A stretch of DNA of 32,403 nt from Candidatus Niyogibacteria bacterium RIFCSPLOWO2_01_FULL_45_48. Its GTDB lineage: Bacteria > Patescibacteriota > Minisyncoccia > HO2-45-28. The stretch lies in NCBI GenBank assembly GCA_001819395.1, contig MHMQ01000002.1, forward strand, positions 1 through 32,403, in the 5' to 3' direction. Positions 1 to 6,080 of this stretch are shown piece by piece. Under the pieces are notes generated by a model that was not told the DNA's origin, did not search any database, and worked only from the letters and a program-made list of their open reading frames with translations. How positions within the stretch are numbered: the stretch's first letter is position 1; every line of letters starts with the position of its first letter. Made by a program: the position numbers and the translations under genes.

Positions 1-2358
1 TTTCTGGTAAATCCGGCGTCAGCCGGAGCCGACACGGTGCTAATTGCCGCGGCGGTGGGGGACTCCTCCAAATTCTTTGTTGACGCCGAAGGCGACATAT
101 TTGCCAATTCCCTGACATCTATAGGAGGGCAGACTCTTTCCTCAACCACGGCTTCCACTCTGCTTGTTGAAAACAACACAACGCTCGGAGATGCCATAGG
201 CGATTCGGTCATATTCAATTCGGGACTCTTGCAATTCAACAACCGCGCCACTTCCACGATTCCGAATCTCACGGTCAATGCCTGGTCAATCGCCACTTCC
301 ACCTCAATCGTTCCCACATTCACAATTTCAACCGCGTCTTCTCCTTTCGGTTTTGTGGGCATCGGGACGACAAGCCCGACCGAATCTTTCTCAACCGCGG
401 GCAGGTTTTACGTCGGAGGCACGGGAACTTCAACGGTTGAAAACAATTTTTCAATACTGGGGACTCTTGGAGTGGGTAGCGGAACAACCTATATCACATC
501 ATCCGGCCTTAACTTCTCAACCACGGGGTCAATCACCGCAGGAACCCTGGGAGGCCTTTCAATTCCATACGCTTCCACAACCGCTCTTACAGTTTCCGGC
601 TCGGCTTCAACCACAAATCAGGTTATTTCGTCTTTGATTTCCGGCAGGATTCCCTACGCTTCAACGGCAGGACTTTTAATTGATAATTCCGCTTTAACTT
701 TTGACGGAACGCGTTTGACTGCTTCTTATGCTTCTACAACTGTCATTTCCTCAACCGGTTCGGCTTATTTCGCGACATCCGACGGCAACGTCGGCATCGG
801 GACGACCAGTCCAACAACGCTTCTCGATATAGCATCAAGTGATGCCAACACTTACACCAACGCTTCAGACGGCGGAGGAACGGTATTTCGTTTATCGAAT
901 ACTAATACGACCAATAATAATTTTTCGGAGTTACGATACTCTACCAATGACACCAATGGTGCTCTGACAGTCACCTCCCGTATTCTCAGTAGAATCGTCA
1001 ACCATACCGCAGGGGCTGTTTCTTCAGAGCTCGTGTTTATCAATCGCAATGCCGGCACACTGACAGAAGCTATGCGTATCAATAATAACGGCAACGTCGG
1101 CATCGGTACACAATCAAACTCCACACAAAGATTGGGTATAAAAGGCACAGGTACTACAAATGCCTCAACTGGACTCATTATTTCAAATAGCGCGGGGAAC
1201 GTCTATCTTAACTCGCTTGATAACGGGGAATTTAGAATTTCTTTACCGAACACGCAAACCCTAGTCGCTTTATGCCATAGCACACAAGGACAAATAGCCG
1301 TAGGCACGACAGACCCAATAGTGGATTGTTCCGGCGCCCCCTCGGACATAGCCGAATGGTACGAGGCAGAATCTAACGTAGAAGTTGCTGATATAGTATC
1401 TTCTTCCGACCAAACTATAGAATTTCAGTATGCGGGAAAGATTGATGATTATTATGATGAAAATGGCCAAAAATCAGAGGAGGTCCCGCAAGACTTCGCC
1501 ACTACGACAATCTCAATTCTTTCAAAATCAACAAAGCCTTATGATTCAAAAATAATAGGCATTGTTTCAACAGCCCCGTATCAAACTTTTGGAGAAGATG
1601 TAAAAGACGTTGCAATAAATCCTCAAAGAATAGCCCTGACCGGCCGTGTTCCGGTCAAAGTTTCCCTTGAAAACGGCCCGATTGCGGTGGGAGACAGGAT
1701 TACTTCTTCTTCGCTTGCGGGCGTTGGAATGAAGGCAACCGCCGAGGGCCCGACTGTGGGAATCGCGCTTGAGCCGTTTGACGGTTCCGCGCCCTCCTCA
1801 ACACTCGGTGTTTCTTCTTCAACACCGAGTGTTTCCCCAGGCGTCGGCAAAATCCTTGTTTTCGTCAATCTAGGCTGGAATCATCTGGACTCGCAAATTT
1901 CAGGCGGCGCGGTTGGCGGCGGATTTTGGATTTCAAATTCGGCAGGCGTCATCACCACTAACAACATTTTGGACTTGTCGGGGCAAGGGATAATAAACGT
2001 CGGCTACATCACTTCTGCGAATTGGAGAATTACGGAAGACGGCACGCTGGAAGCCAAAAAAATTGTGGCGGACAATGCCGAAATCAAAAATGGAATCACA
2101 ACCTACGACAGCGCGACAGGAGAGACCTACTGCATAAGAATAACCAACGGCGCGGTGGTATCTCTCGCCGGCAAATGTTCGGATTTATTAACCCCAAGCG
2201 CACCGGCATCTTTGCCACCGTCCCCAAGCTCCGAACCGACTCCGCCATCCGTAGATGAACCGATTTCCGACGCAACCACCGCCTCATCAACCCCGACCGA
2301 AGAATCGCCTTCGGAAGAATCAACGGAGACCGCCACAACCACTGAATCAACTCCCTAG
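1..2358 (+). CDS. Repetitive surface / tail-fibre-like protein, 5'-truncated by the window edge
   Basis: Frame 1 is open from base 1 (FLVNPASAGADTVLIAAAVGD...), so the tracked GTG at 37 is probably internal. Repeated (N)VGIGTTSPT motifs, a conserved 'SDIAEWYE...VADIV' segment and an 'IALTGRVPVKVSLENGPIAVGDRITSSSLAGVGMKA' segment, then a Ser/Thr/Pro/Glu-rich C-terminal tail. Confidence 0.75.
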   Translation, partial: FLVNPASAGADTVLIAAAVGDSSKFFVDAEGDIFANSLTSIGGQTLSSTTASTLLVENNTTLGDAIGDSVIFNSGLLQFNNRATSTIPNLTVNAWSIATSTSIVPTFTISTASSPFGFVGIGTTSPTESFSTAGRFYVGGTGTSTVENNFSILGTLGVGSGTTYITSSGLNFSTTGSITAGTLGGLSIPYASTTALTVSGSASTTNQVISSLISGRIPYASTAGLLIDNSALTFDGTRLTASYASTTVISSTGSAYFATSDGNVGIGTTSPTTLLDIASSDANTYTNASDGGGTVFRLSNTNTTNNNFSELRYSTNDTNGALTVTSRILSRIVNHTAGAVSSELVFINRNAGTLTEAMRINNNGNVGIGTQSNSTQRLGIKGTGTTNASTGLIISNSAGNVYLNSLDNGEFRISLPNTQTLVALCHSTQGQIAVGTTDPIVDCSGAPSDIAEWYEAESNVEVADIVSSSDQTIEFQYAGKIDDYYDENGQKSEEVPQDFATTTISILSKSTKPYDSKIIGIVSTAPYQTFGEDVKDVAINPQRIALTGRVPVKVSLENGPIAVGDRITSSSLAGVGMKATAEGPTVGIALEPFDGSAPSSTLGVSSSTPSVSPGVGKILVFVNLGWNHLDSQISGGAVGGGFWISNSAGVITTNNILDLSGQGIINVGYITSANWRITEDGTLEAKKIVADNAEIKNGITTYDSATGETYCIRITNGAVVSLAGKCSDLLTPSAPASLPPSPSSEPTPPSVDEPISDATTASSTPTEESPSEESTETATTTESTP

Positions 2359-2385: not shown

Positions 2386-2436
2386 CATTTTATCTATTAT
2401 ATCAAAATTTGACCTATAGGCCAAAAAATGAAAGAG
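2386..2436. repeat. Imperfect direct repeat copy 1 (partner 3142..3192)
   Basis: CATTTTATCTATTATATCAAAATTTGACCTATAGGCCAAAAAATGAAAGAG aligns ungapped to CATTAAATCTATTCTATCATAATCTAACCTATCGGTCTAAAAGTGAAAGAA, 40/51 identical by eye. Confidence 0.75.
2409..2424. promoter_or_regulatory. Operator-like dyad TTGACCTATAGGCCAA
   Basis: 16-mer with 7 of 8 self-complementary pairs, in the gap between convergent genes; lies within a repeat also found upstream of the PaaX/Cas2-like gene. Confidence 0.45.
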
Positions 2437-2487
2437 TTAAAGTAAATAAAAAATAAATAAAAATAAGAACACAAAAGGTTTATAAAG

Positions 2488-3144
2488 TTATAAATGAGAT
2501 TTTAGCATTTGACGATAGTGATATAAAACTTTTCCATTCGGCATTTCGGAAGCCTTTAAAACATACACAAACGGTTTTACATTAAAAACATCTTTTATAA
2601 ATTCAATTTCTTCTTCACAAGGGAATGGGTGGACCCAAACGCTTTTTTGAAGAGGGTAACACCCGATCTCGCTTAACTTTCTTTGCAAGGATCTACGCGC
2701 CAAACGACGATTTTCGGGAATATCAAAAATTATTATGCGCCAATTTCCGTCCCACTTGAGCGGCGCTTCGATCTTTAAAGTTTCCAAAACAAAGCGCCTG
2801 AATTTTTTTTCGCCATTTTTGGTGAATTCGTAAATATCTGCACCGTTTTCTTCTTTACAAAAAACCAAACTGTGTTCTTTTTTCATTCGATAAAAATTCT
2901 GCCAAAGACGAGCGTATCTTTTACGCTCCTCCACCTTCCTGTTGTTAGTTGAACGGCCAATTGTGCTCACGACTCCCGGAACAACAACTGCCGCTGTTAA
3001 CACGCCGCCAAACACAGCCAGGCCGAATAAAACCTTAGCAGCCGAAGTTGTGGTCGGGTGATCATTTATAAATTTTTTAAATTGCTCCTTTATTTTTTCC
3101 GGCAAATCAGGGCTTTTAAAACGTAATGGTTTGGATTTTGGCAT
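2488..3144 (-). CDS. PaaX-like / Cas2-fold protein with predicted N-terminal transmembrane segment
   Basis: C-terminal 'WRIIIFDIPENRRLARRSLQRKLSEIGCYPLQKSVWVHP' matches the PaaX/Cas2 ferredoxin-fold pattern; winged-helix-like middle part; hydrophobic 'AAKVLFGLAVFGGVLTAAVVVPGVVSTIG' near the N-terminus. Confidence 0.75.
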   Translation of the reverse strand: MPKSKPLRFKSPDLPEKIKEQFKKFINDHPTTTSAAKVLFGLAVFGGVLTAAVVVPGVVSTIGRSTNNRKVEERKRYARLWQNFYRMKKEHSLVFCKEENGADIYEFTKNGEKKFRRFVLETLKIEAPLKWDGNWRIIIFDIPENRRLARRSLQRKLSEIGCYPLQKSVWVHPFPCEEEIEFIKDVFNVKPFVYVLKASEMPNGKVLYHYRQMLKSHL

Positions 3145-3192
3145 TAAATCTATTCTATCATAATCTAACCTATCGGTCTAAAAGTGAAAGAA
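3142..3192. repeat. Imperfect direct repeat copy 2, spanning promoter and start codon of the PaaX/Cas2-like gene
   Basis: Partner of 2386..2436; contains minus-strand TAGAAT at 3152-3157 seven nt before the ATG. Confidence 0.75.
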
Positions 3193-3218: not shown

Positions 3219-4400
3219 TTATTGTGTCGGTTCCGGGCCTATTTTCCTTTTGCTGGCCGTGATAAATTCCGATGTTTTCGTAGTTGCTAGGGTATTTATT
3301 TTTTGAGCAACTTCTGGCGATAAGGTAGGCAAGAGTTCCTCGAGACGTTTTTCGTCTGCCTTAAGCACTTCCTCCCACTTTCCAATCGAATGTAAAATTT
3401 CTTCAACTTTCTCCATGTCGTATTTTTTTGCCACTTTAACTGATTTTGAAACATAGCCCTCGTCGCCAAAAAGGCGAAGAACATCTTTTTGGCGCATGTA
3501 GTCGGACATAAGCGCTTGAAGTTCTTTCAAGCGGCCGGAGTTATCTTTTGATTCTTCTTTCAGTTTAAAATACTCAGCGATTATCTCTTTTATTTTTATA
3601 TCATCAGGGGCGGGGGACTTGTCTTTGTTATACAAATGCCTCCAGACGGGGCAAATGGGCTTATATCCGCACCAGTCGCACAAAGGACCGGGTGTGGGCT
3701 GAAAATCGTTATTTGAGGCTATTTTGGCCTTAATTTCATGGATAACTCCCAAAACGCTGTTCTTTGTAGCTTCCAGATCCGTCTCGGTCCGTTTTGTGCT
3801 CAAGGATTCACCGTGAGAAAGATAATAAAGAGTCAAGCGTATGTTTTTGTTTTTTATGTCTGGCCAGCGGTTCAAAAGTCCAAGGTGATAAATTGAGAGC
3901 TGTAAATTTTTATCCAAAGTTTCCTGGGAAGGGAGACGCCGGCCGGTTTTGTAATCGACTATTTCGTAAGTTTCGTCATCCGGCTTATCTACGCGGTCGA
4001 TAATTCCCGAAAGGGTGTGCGTTTCGCCGGTGGATTTGTCTTTTATGGATGTTTCGAATCTTGACTCCAGATCCAAAACGTTAAAATTCCACGGCTGGTT
4101 CTTTTTATAAAATTTTTCAAGAATACTCGCGCCGTGCCGGTTAAAAATTTTTTCTGACTCTTCGTCGGGCCACTTGGTCTTTTCACGCAGTTTCAACCAC
4201 TCTTCGTTATAAAAATTGACCACTTCGTCAAGAGTGGGGTAGAGAGGGTCGCGTGAAAACATAAAACGAAGCGCGGAATGCAGAGCCGTTCCAAAAACGG
4301 CCTCTTTTGATTTAGGAACACGAATCCGGTCAATTTCCTGATATTTATATTTAAGCGGACAGGTTTTATATGTATCTATGGCAGAATACGAAATGCGCAT
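3219..4400 (-). CDS. PD-(D/E)XK nuclease family protein (RecB/AddB/Cas4-like, putative Fe-S cluster)
   Basis: 'SYSAIDTYKTCPLKYKY' N-terminus, 'GTALHSALRFMF', 'GIIDRVD...EIVDYKTGR' catalytic pattern, and C-terminal 'CDWCGYKPIC' (CxxCxxxxxC) pairing with the N-terminal Cys. Confidence 0.85.
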   Translation of the reverse strand: MRISYSAIDTYKTCPLKYKYQEIDRIRVPKSKEAVFGTALHSALRFMFSRDPLYPTLDEVVNFYNEEWLKLREKTKWPDEESEKIFNRHGASILEKFYKKNQPWNFNVLDLESRFETSIKDKSTGETHTLSGIIDRVDKPDDETYEIVDYKTGRRLPSQETLDKNLQLSIYHLGLLNRWPDIKNKNIRLTLYYLSHGESLSTKRTETDLEATKNSVLGVIHEIKAKIASNNDFQPTPGPLCDWCGYKPICPVWRHLYNKDKSPAPDDIKIKEIIAEYFKLKEESKDNSGRLKELQALMSDYMRQKDVLRLFGDEGYVSKSVKVAKKYDMEKVEEILHSIGKWEEVLKADEKRLEELLPTLSPEVAQKINTLATTKTSEFITASKRKIGPEPTQ

Positions 4401-4492: not shown

Positions 4493-4783
4493 TTACTGTT
4501 TCAAAATAGGATTTTGGCCGGCCTTAATTGCGTTCATCGCGTCAATAAACGCGCTCCAGATAAAATCAACAAAAAAACTCTTGGCAAATTCCCAAACGAC
4601 GCCAATCGTTTTACCAACCCAACTGTCCAAAACCGCCTTTAAAGCCTTACCGATAAAAGAAAAATTTTCCTGAAGAGTTTTGTTTTGAAAAAGAGCCGAT
4701 AACGATACCCCCAAAAGGCTCAGAATAACAACCAAGAGCAAAAAAATGACTATCAGCTGTATAAACCCGCGGTTTTTGTCCAT
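4493..4783 (-). CDS. Hypothetical small membrane protein (96 aa)
   Basis: ORF with one hydrophobic N-terminal helix 'FIQLIVIFLLLVVILSLLGVSLSALF'; TATAAT 7 nt before its ATG. Confidence 0.6.
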   Translation of the reverse strand: MDKNRGFIQLIVIFLLLVVILSLLGVSLSALFQNKTLQENFSFIGKALKAVLDSWVGKTIGVVWEFAKSFFVDFIWSAFIDAMNAIKAGQNPILKQ

Positions 4784-4805: not shown

Positions 4806-6080
4806 TTATAAGTATGTTAGTGGGTTTAAATAAACATTGAATGGCGCTATGGGTATTTCCATGTTGGCGCAGTTTGTAACCTTTTTGACATCCCCCAAGC
4901 GAACTACACGCACTCCTTCGGAAGCAAAAACCGTGAAATGGAGATGCGGACCGGTGCTATAGCCCGTATTTCCGCTGTATCCGACCAGCTGACCCCCGGA
5001 AATATTCTGACCCGGGCTGACGCTTATCAAAGAAAGATGGGCGTAAAGTGTTGAGAGATTGTTCGGATGCTTCACAAGCGCCCATTTTCCATAGGAATAA
5101 CACCCGCGCTGTAAATCCGTGTTACCGGTCGCTATCACAACGCCGTCGGCAGAAGACTTAACCGGAGTTCCTATTGAAGCGCGCAAATCAATGCCGTTAT
5201 GCCCTTTTCCGCCGTAAACCTGCGGATTTTGAGTTGCAAACGGAGTATTTCCAAAATACTGGGTTATGAAAACGCTGTTTAAGGGCCATTTTAATACACC
5301 CGAACCGGGACTGGGCAACGAAGACGGGTCTATGGTGATTCTTAACTCCTCCTCAATACTTCTTATTTCGGCCTCCAGGGCCTCTTTTTTGGACAAACGG
5401 TCGTCCAAAAGCTCCTTGTACTCGGCTTCCTTGTTCTGGGTGATTTTAAGCAAGTTATTTTTTTGAATCCGAGCGTCTTCTTCTATTGATTTTCTGGAAT
5501 CAAGTTCCAAACGCAAACTTTGAAGTGACAATTTTGTTTTCTCCTGTTTGGACTTTTCGGCTTCCAAAACAATCTTTGCCTCTTTTAGTTCGTTAAGCTT
5601 AAGCCCAAGATCGGAGCTGAGACTTTCTATGTAGTCTATATCGCTAAAAAATCCCGAAAGATCGGGACGGGCCAGCATGATTTCAATCAGGCTTTGTGAT
5701 TCTATTTCGTTCATGTTTCTGACAATCTCCGCCAAGGCATTTTTAAATTTTTCTGTTTCGGAACCTTTTTCGGCAATGCCTATTTGCAGTTCTTCCAGCG
5801 TCAATTCGGCCGCTTCCACTTTTTTTTGGGTTACTTTTATGTCGGTTAAAAGTTTGTTTATGGTCTTGGTCAGAACTCCAACTTGGTTTTTGAGAGTACC
5901 GGTTTCTTTCGATGTTTTATCTATTTCGGTCTGGAATTCGGCTATCTCTTCTTCCAGTTCTTTTATTTGCGCGTTTTTTTCTTCAATTTCAGATCTTAGT
6001 TCGTCGACAGACTCCGCGTCCGCAAAAACAGGCGCAACAAAGATGAAAATAAATGCGATGGTTAAAAATTTGGACCTCAT
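4806..6080 (-). CDS. Murein hydrolase activator / M23 (LytM) peptidase with N-terminal coiled coil
   Basis: Signal peptide-like N-terminus, long coiled coil, LytM motifs 'GHNGIDL', 'YAHLS', 'GPHLHF'; overlaps gltX by 4 nt. Confidence 0.9.
   Translation of the reverse strand: MRSKFLTIAFIFIFVAPVFADAESVDELRSEIEEKNAQIKELEEEIAEFQTEIDKTSKETGTLKNQVGVLTKTINKLLTDIKVTQKKVEAAELTLEELQIGIAEKGSETEKFKNALAEIVRNMNEIESQSLIEIMLARPDLSGFFSDIDYIESLSSDLGLKLNELKEAKIVLEAEKSKQEKTKLSLQSLRLELDSRKSIEEDARIQKNNLLKITQNKEAEYKELLDDRLSKKEALEAEIRSIEEELRITIDPSSLPSPGSGVLKWPLNSVFITQYFGNTPFATQNPQVYGGKGHNGIDLRASIGTPVKSSADGVVIATGNTDLQRGCYSYGKWALVKHPNNLSTLYAHLSLISVSPGQNISGGQLVGYSGNTGYSTGPHLHFTVFASEGVRVVRLGDVKKVTNCANMEIPIAPFNVYLNPLTYL

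Follow-up and report, generated by a model that had tools for sequence, protein, structure and literature searches.

RAYTs are REP-associated tyrosine transposases. In the REP/RAYT systems and REPINs a single low-copy gene is flanked by palindromes, of which copies of 20-40 bp are dispersed through extragenic DNA (PMC3116915, PMC3733652, PMC3686654). The IS200/IS605 family comprises small single-gene elements with palindromic ends (PMC6006769). PaaX regulators (PF20803; E. coli PaaX, PDB code 8a39) combine a winged helix with a Cas2-like domain, and palindromic binding sites near promoters are expected of them, while Cas2 itself belongs to CRISPR adaptation. TTHA0973 was considered as a model for a PaaX-like binding site and was dropped, being a TetR-type regulator (PMC6651687). 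The locus described here lies in a window of 32,403 nucleotides, the whole stretch of DNA analysed, from Candidatus Niyogibacteria. On balance, the window probably holds a member of a family of autorepressed, minimal, single-gene mobile units that resemble REP/RAYT.

The central gene (2488..3144, minus strand) encodes a PaaX/Cas2-like protein of 218 residues, identified by PF20803, a fold match and invariant residues. With 75.2 bits against a gathering threshold of 24, the protein belongs to the PaaX_M domain family (PF20803), as PaaX regulators do. It differs from the phenylacetate repressors in scoring far below the cut-off of the phenylacetate-PaaX equivalog (TIGR02277; 27.8 bits against 264.55) and in having up to 13 homologues per genome. 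The N-terminal half is a hydrophobic, degenerate winged helix, while residues ~130-200 constitute a Cas2-fold domain. The AlphaFold2 model displays a mean pLDDT of 83.5, with residues 52-64 of low confidence, and the solved structure closest to it is E. coli PaaX (8a39; E 9e-4), ahead of many Cas2 structures. Foldseek comparison with several of the latter gave probabilities of up to 1.00, which identifies the Cas2 ferredoxin-like fold. A search of PDB sequences with a four-member profile returned chance matches only, and a 79-member profile gave weak but sensible matches to both wHTH and Cas2 proteins, its first half aligning weakly to MarR/ArsR winged helices and its second to Cas2. D141, R150 and S168 are invariant among 109 homologues, and the Asp, Arg and Gln-Ser positions of Cas2 are aligned in the protein. 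In contrast with Cas2, the fold is here joined to a DNA-binding half, and the surroundings of the gene showed no repeat array. Among the five proteins scanned, no cas1 was found.

In a Pfam scan the protein gave no match to Y1_Tnp, the signature of an HUH/Y1 transposase domain. Because this domain is lacking, the unit is not a member of REP/RAYT, although it would work in a similar manner through an unrelated protein. The likeness consists in a single gene of low copy number flanked by palindromes that, in some genomes, also disperse. The differences, apart from a protein with a winged helix and a Cas2 fold, are palindromes arranged as direct repeats, nearly symmetric about a perfect core and overlying the promoter of the gene, as well as much lower copy numbers. 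Similarly, the TnpA Y1 domain of IS200/IS605 elements is absent, and the ends are matching repeats of ~34-40 bp rather than subterminal hairpins. Six PaaX/Cas2-like paralogues are present in the genome of the window, the 2488-3144 gene included, and PaaX_M occurs in about a third of the genomes in a phylum-wide sample (123 of 380). Values of dN/dS of 0.04-0.125 in orthologues at fixed sites reveal purifying selection, and the protein is therefore functional and maintained. Three PaaX_M copies (G270:C1, G122:C1 and G089:C1) contain single internal stop codons and are apparently decaying units.

Two imperfect direct repeats of 51 bp, both on the minus strand, flank the gene. Copy 2 (3142..3192) lies upstream and contains the promoter/operator with the start codon, while copy 1 (2386..2436) begins ~50 bp past the stop codon, in the convergent gap shared with a surface-protein gene. 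The count of 40/51 identities in an ungapped alignment, given in an earlier note on this DNA, was reproduced exactly, and the next-best place for the repeat in the 32-kb window reaches 29/51. Chance similarity between stretches of promoter-like DNA, in a region that is indeed AT-rich, has a negligible probability, as 2000 Markov-shuffled versions of the intergenic DNA (130 bp) yielded at most 32/51 and orthologues share the layout with a different sequence. The arrangement within the copies also agrees with its previous description. In copy 2, the ATG of the gene lies at 3144-3142 (minus strand) and, as read from the sequence, a predicted extended -10 (TGATAGAAT) has the hexamer TAGAAT at 3152..3157 (minus strand) preceded by an upstream TG; the predicted -35 (TAGACC, 3175-3180, minus strand) is weak. 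Copy 1 has the same layout on the minus strand, with TGATATAAT (hexamer at 2396-2401) and TTGGCC at 2419-2424, but reads ATG TAA.

The 16-bp dyad TTGACCTATAGGCCAA, for which near-perfect symmetry had been claimed, is self-complementary at 14/16 positions but constitutes only the core of the conserved object. This object is a bipartite palindrome, at least 34 bp long, in which the outer arms TTTCA/TGATA enclose a CCKATAGG core. The upstream 34-bp palindrome (TTTCACTTTTAGACCGATAGGTTAGATTATGATA, 3156..3189, minus strand) extends over the -35 and the spacer and touches the -10, and its downstream counterpart (TTTCATTTTTTGGCCTATAGGTCAAATTTTGATA) spans 2400..2433 on the same strand. Both are weakly symmetric (9/17 upstream, 12/17 downstream), and the palindromes of relatives are much clearer. 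At no more than three mismatches, the 34-bp palindrome is found at only two places in the 808-kb genome, both flanking the gene. A genome search with the short dyad (ACCTATNGGT-like) returned mostly chance matches, the few promising ones being located inside genes or lacking the outer arms.

Full-length orthologues, 40-47% identical, from Giovannonibacteria, Uhrbacteria, Tagabacteria and others display the same arrangement in other letters. In the short CPR homologues, a bipartite palindrome of ~34-40 bp overlaps the promoter or lies directly upstream of it, and the same palindrome recurs just past the stop codon. The median distance of the palindrome centre is 42 bp to the ATG on the upstream side and 37 bp to the stop on the downstream side. 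The promoter-side palindrome is repeated on the same strand after the stop codon at L045, L046, L047, L048, L050, L051, L053, L054 and L055. Similarity between the upstream and downstream stretches exceeded the threshold of z > 4 in 81 of 101 non-redundant homologues versus 8 of 442 control ORFs, which were the other ORFs of the same loci. In a cross-check, 74 upstream stretches had their own downstream stretch ranked first of 102. In a second sample, chosen by PaaX_M HMM score, 23 of 40 genes exceeded z > 4, many of the misses belonging to a longer subgroup of 237-270 aa. Overall, about 20-40% of homologues lack the both-flank pattern, including most members of ~237-270 aa. At L052, a long perfect palindrome with core GCGATCGC (ctacataaaaaccgcgatcgcggtttttatgtag) lies directly past the stop, at 689, of a PaaX-like gene located at the contig start.

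These comparisons bear on the proposal that copy 1 is the remainder of a tandem paralogue, a promoter and a dead start that outlasted the deletion of their gene. The -10 and ATG-like spacing of copy 1, on the same strand, would agree with such an origin, but copy 1 and the stop codon of the neighbouring gene are only about 27 bp apart, and almost all relatives have the downstream copy without a second gene. The proposal is thus very improbable. As a downstream copy without a second gene is the rule, the ATG-TAA of copy 1 is therefore incidental.

The cores are palindromes of 6-8 bp (CCGATCGG, ACGATCGT, GCATATGC, GCTATAGC, GCCATGGC, GCAATTGC and others), and palindrome sequences vary from clade to clade in step with the protein. 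The same 8-bp core is shared by 71% of pairs with protein identity of at least 70%, versus 6-7% of pairs at 20-40%. Pairs with unlike outer arms, which are not independent of one another, differ most around residues 62-69 and 78-90, close to the likely recognition region of the winged helix. Since the core tracks protein identity and the arm differences lie near this putative recognition region, the data suggest that each protein reads the palindrome of its own unit. The absence of other copies and of dyad conservation, an outcome contemplated in the earlier note, was not observed; dyads are conserved around relatives, with a sequence specific to each element, and other copies occur elsewhere. 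Two paralogues in the window's own genome (L012 and L013, contigs C10 and C34), which are 82% identical, display the same core (GCTATCGC) with different outer arms, each palindrome being present both before and after its gene, which suggests a fast change of arm specificity.

With regard to autoregulation through two operators, also raised previously, autorepression is likely, given that the upstream repeat lies across the promoter and the core follows the protein. Most likely the protein, which probably dimerises via its Cas2 fold, would bind its own palindrome. Binding at the upstream copy, where the palindrome extends across the -35 and the spacer as far as the -10, would shut the promoter and repress the gene. 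It is conceivable that the locus has no other role, and that a PaaX-family repressor uses operators over its promoter and past its gene, which cooperate through looping or road-blocking to keep a constant level and stay alike with one protein reading both. The overlapped promoter, the core that follows the protein, the differences concentrated in the putative recognition region, purifying selection and the presence of just two sites in the window's genome are all in line with a regulator of this type. However, a regulator without any other target has no obvious use, the L140/L049 locus keeps the gene without the downstream copy, and several observations on unit boundaries and dispersal, presented below, are left unexplained. 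Regulation as the sole function is thus less likely than a mobile unit, though it is the main alternative.

In relatives, a discrete unit is found in different contexts or is absent at an orthologous site. Between close relatives with unrelated flanks, the outer edges of the two palindromes are exactly where DNA homology begins and ends (L056/L057, L062/L070), and in L091/L121 this is nearly so. Homology that ends at palindrome edges in unrelated contexts is not accounted for by operators that serve regulation only. The same applies to the alternative positions in L062 and L070, from two Staskawiczbacteria whose shared neighbourhoods are about 80-85% identical. A 300-bp block has the unit directly on its left in L062, where its right junction is empty (15 bp); in L070 the left side of the block carries a lone palindrome and the right side carries the unit. 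The difference may reflect relocation, or two ancestral units that were differentially lost; either would represent unit turnover. In L070, a 28-bp direct repeat (TGTCAAGAGTTGCGGACTTATTTAAACT; 4697-4725 and 5838-5868) brackets the unit together with an extra small antisense ORF and is single in L062; it could be a target duplication or the scar of a tandem duplication.

An allele with one repeat left, of the kind anticipated in the earlier note, was found between murG and gltX in Giovannonibacteria. At this site the full unit is present in G060 and G061, G063 carries the gene and the promoter-side copy alone, and in G059 (locus L138) the gene is absent and exactly one palindrome remains between the expected flanks, where 57 bp of flank plus one palindrome of ~37 bp make up the 94 bp present. 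Other relatives have neither gene nor palindrome between murG and gltX. The one-repeat allele is equally well explained by host recombination between the direct repeats. No insertion with a defined target-site duplication was recognised among the loci compared, and the ychF region of G065 contains no palindrome, its upstream synteny being too poor for an empty-site call. Nevertheless, among the three readings offered for the repeats, a small mobile cassette is the best supported, through edge-bounded homology, alternative positions in sister genomes and the one-repeat allele.

The cognate palindrome is dispersed in two Moranbacteria, with 16 places in G064 and ~10 in G065, while the window's genome has the two flanking copies only. 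A second palindrome type occurs 8 times in G064 and 0 times in G065, from which no unit of that type was fetched; a reversed control pattern matched 0 places. Similarity between solo palindromes mostly ends at about 38 bp, and two solo clusters of G064 are segmental duplicates. Solos lie between convergent genes in 9 of 15 classifiable cases versus 13 of 67 background gaps, and between divergent genes in 0 of 15 versus 15 of 67. With this bias towards convergent gaps and none in divergent ones, the solos are therefore not mainly promoter operators, and a purely autoregulatory role does not explain palindromes in convergent gaps, in which promoters are not expected. Intergenic regions of Moranbacteria also contain another dispersed inverted repeat (GTCATACTGAACTTGTTTCAG...CTGAAACAAGTTCAGGATGAC), which adjoins PaaX-type palindromes (L188:7080-7170, L196:1610-1700).

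The enrichment between convergent genes, together with a downstream copy directly past the stop codon, would also suit palindromes that act as protein-bound bidirectional terminators or as nucleoid or insulator sites, the unit being an immobile host gene for chromosome organisation. This is improbable. Separate terminator-like hairpins adjoin some solos, terminators need not match the promoter-side copy in sequence, conserved mismatches in the dispersed palindromes argue against simple hairpins, and the sites are few and element-specific.

Around the unit itself, the gene at 3219..4400 (minus strand) encodes a PD-(D/E)XK nuclease of RecB/Cas4 type (PF12705, 130.5 bits) and lies outside the unit, as does the convergent gene at 37..2358 (plus strand), which encodes a large surface-type protein with no Pfam match. 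The nuclease also scores 24.2 bits against Cas_Cas4 (cut-off 22.7), far below the 130.5 bits of PDDEXK_1. The presence of a Cas4-type nuclease beside a Cas2-like gene is probably a coincidence, because the neighbours of units vary. The 37-2358 protein is serine/threonine-rich with recurring 'VGIGTTSPT'-like motifs, and a similar gene occupies the same position in G003. The nearest neighbours scanned (the PD-(D/E)XK nuclease, a small ORF, an M23 peptidase and the surface protein) include no phenylacetate catabolic genes, the far part of the window lying outside the scan. In G003 the same nuclease gene is followed by a PaaX unit of an unrelated clade, and G002 has none there, which shows unit turnover within the family at this locus. 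Searches with the nuclease flank revealed such turnover in relatives but no site from which the window's own unit is cleanly missing. That unit shows no sign of recent movement and is probably an old, quiescent copy. Two profiles found no relative on viral contigs, and a phage origin is therefore not supported.

Taken as a mobile element, the unit would comprise a palindrome, a promoter, the PaaX/Cas2-like gene and the same palindrome again, over about 0.65-0.9 kb. The two palindromes would form its ends, and the unit would come, go and change place as a whole. Comparison of a few relatives shows units with such ends at different places, and that loss can leave a single palindrome. In some genomes the palindrome alone has spread to about 10-16 intergenic places. 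PaaX regulators, by contrast, are not known from this pattern of a cognate palindrome on both sides of the gene and dispersed in some genomes. Self-catalysis by the protein through its invariant Cas2-type Asp is possible. More doubtful than the mobile unit as such is a new class of mobile DNA, widespread in Patescibacteria, in which the PaaX-like protein recognises both terminal palindromes and itself excises, inserts or copies the unit and bare palindromes via the Cas2-type site. We know of no catalytic residue for transposition and of no lone Cas2 fold with demonstrated transposase activity. It also counts against mobility that the clear case of relocation comes from one sister pair and that purifying selection fits a host function too. 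The main doubt is whether the unit is a paired-operator regulator that merely travels or duplicates now and then.

A literature search, which left aside bioRxiv and covered few subscription journals, returned no paper joining PaaX with Patescibacteria/CPR, or PaaX with Cas2 and palindromes, and the palindrome-bounded PaaX/Cas2-like unit appears to be undescribed in Patescibacteria so far. As far as the genome comparisons go, it shows signs of being one of the smallest mobile DNA units. PaaX_M genes are presumably annotated as transcriptional regulators, and if they are palindrome-bounded units, a gene family common in these minimal genomes would need re-annotation. The paired sets of protein and palindrome offer a ready system for reading a DNA-recognition code. 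Action of a Cas2-fold protein on palindromic repeats that are unconnected with CRISPR would also bear on the origin of the DNA-handling role of Cas2, and, if the protein itself moves the unit, Cas2-fold proteins would be able to act as autonomous mobility enzymes. Patescibacteria (CPR), tiny and mostly uncultured bacteria in which the PaaX/Cas2-like family is widespread, would gain a mobile element of about 0.7 kb.
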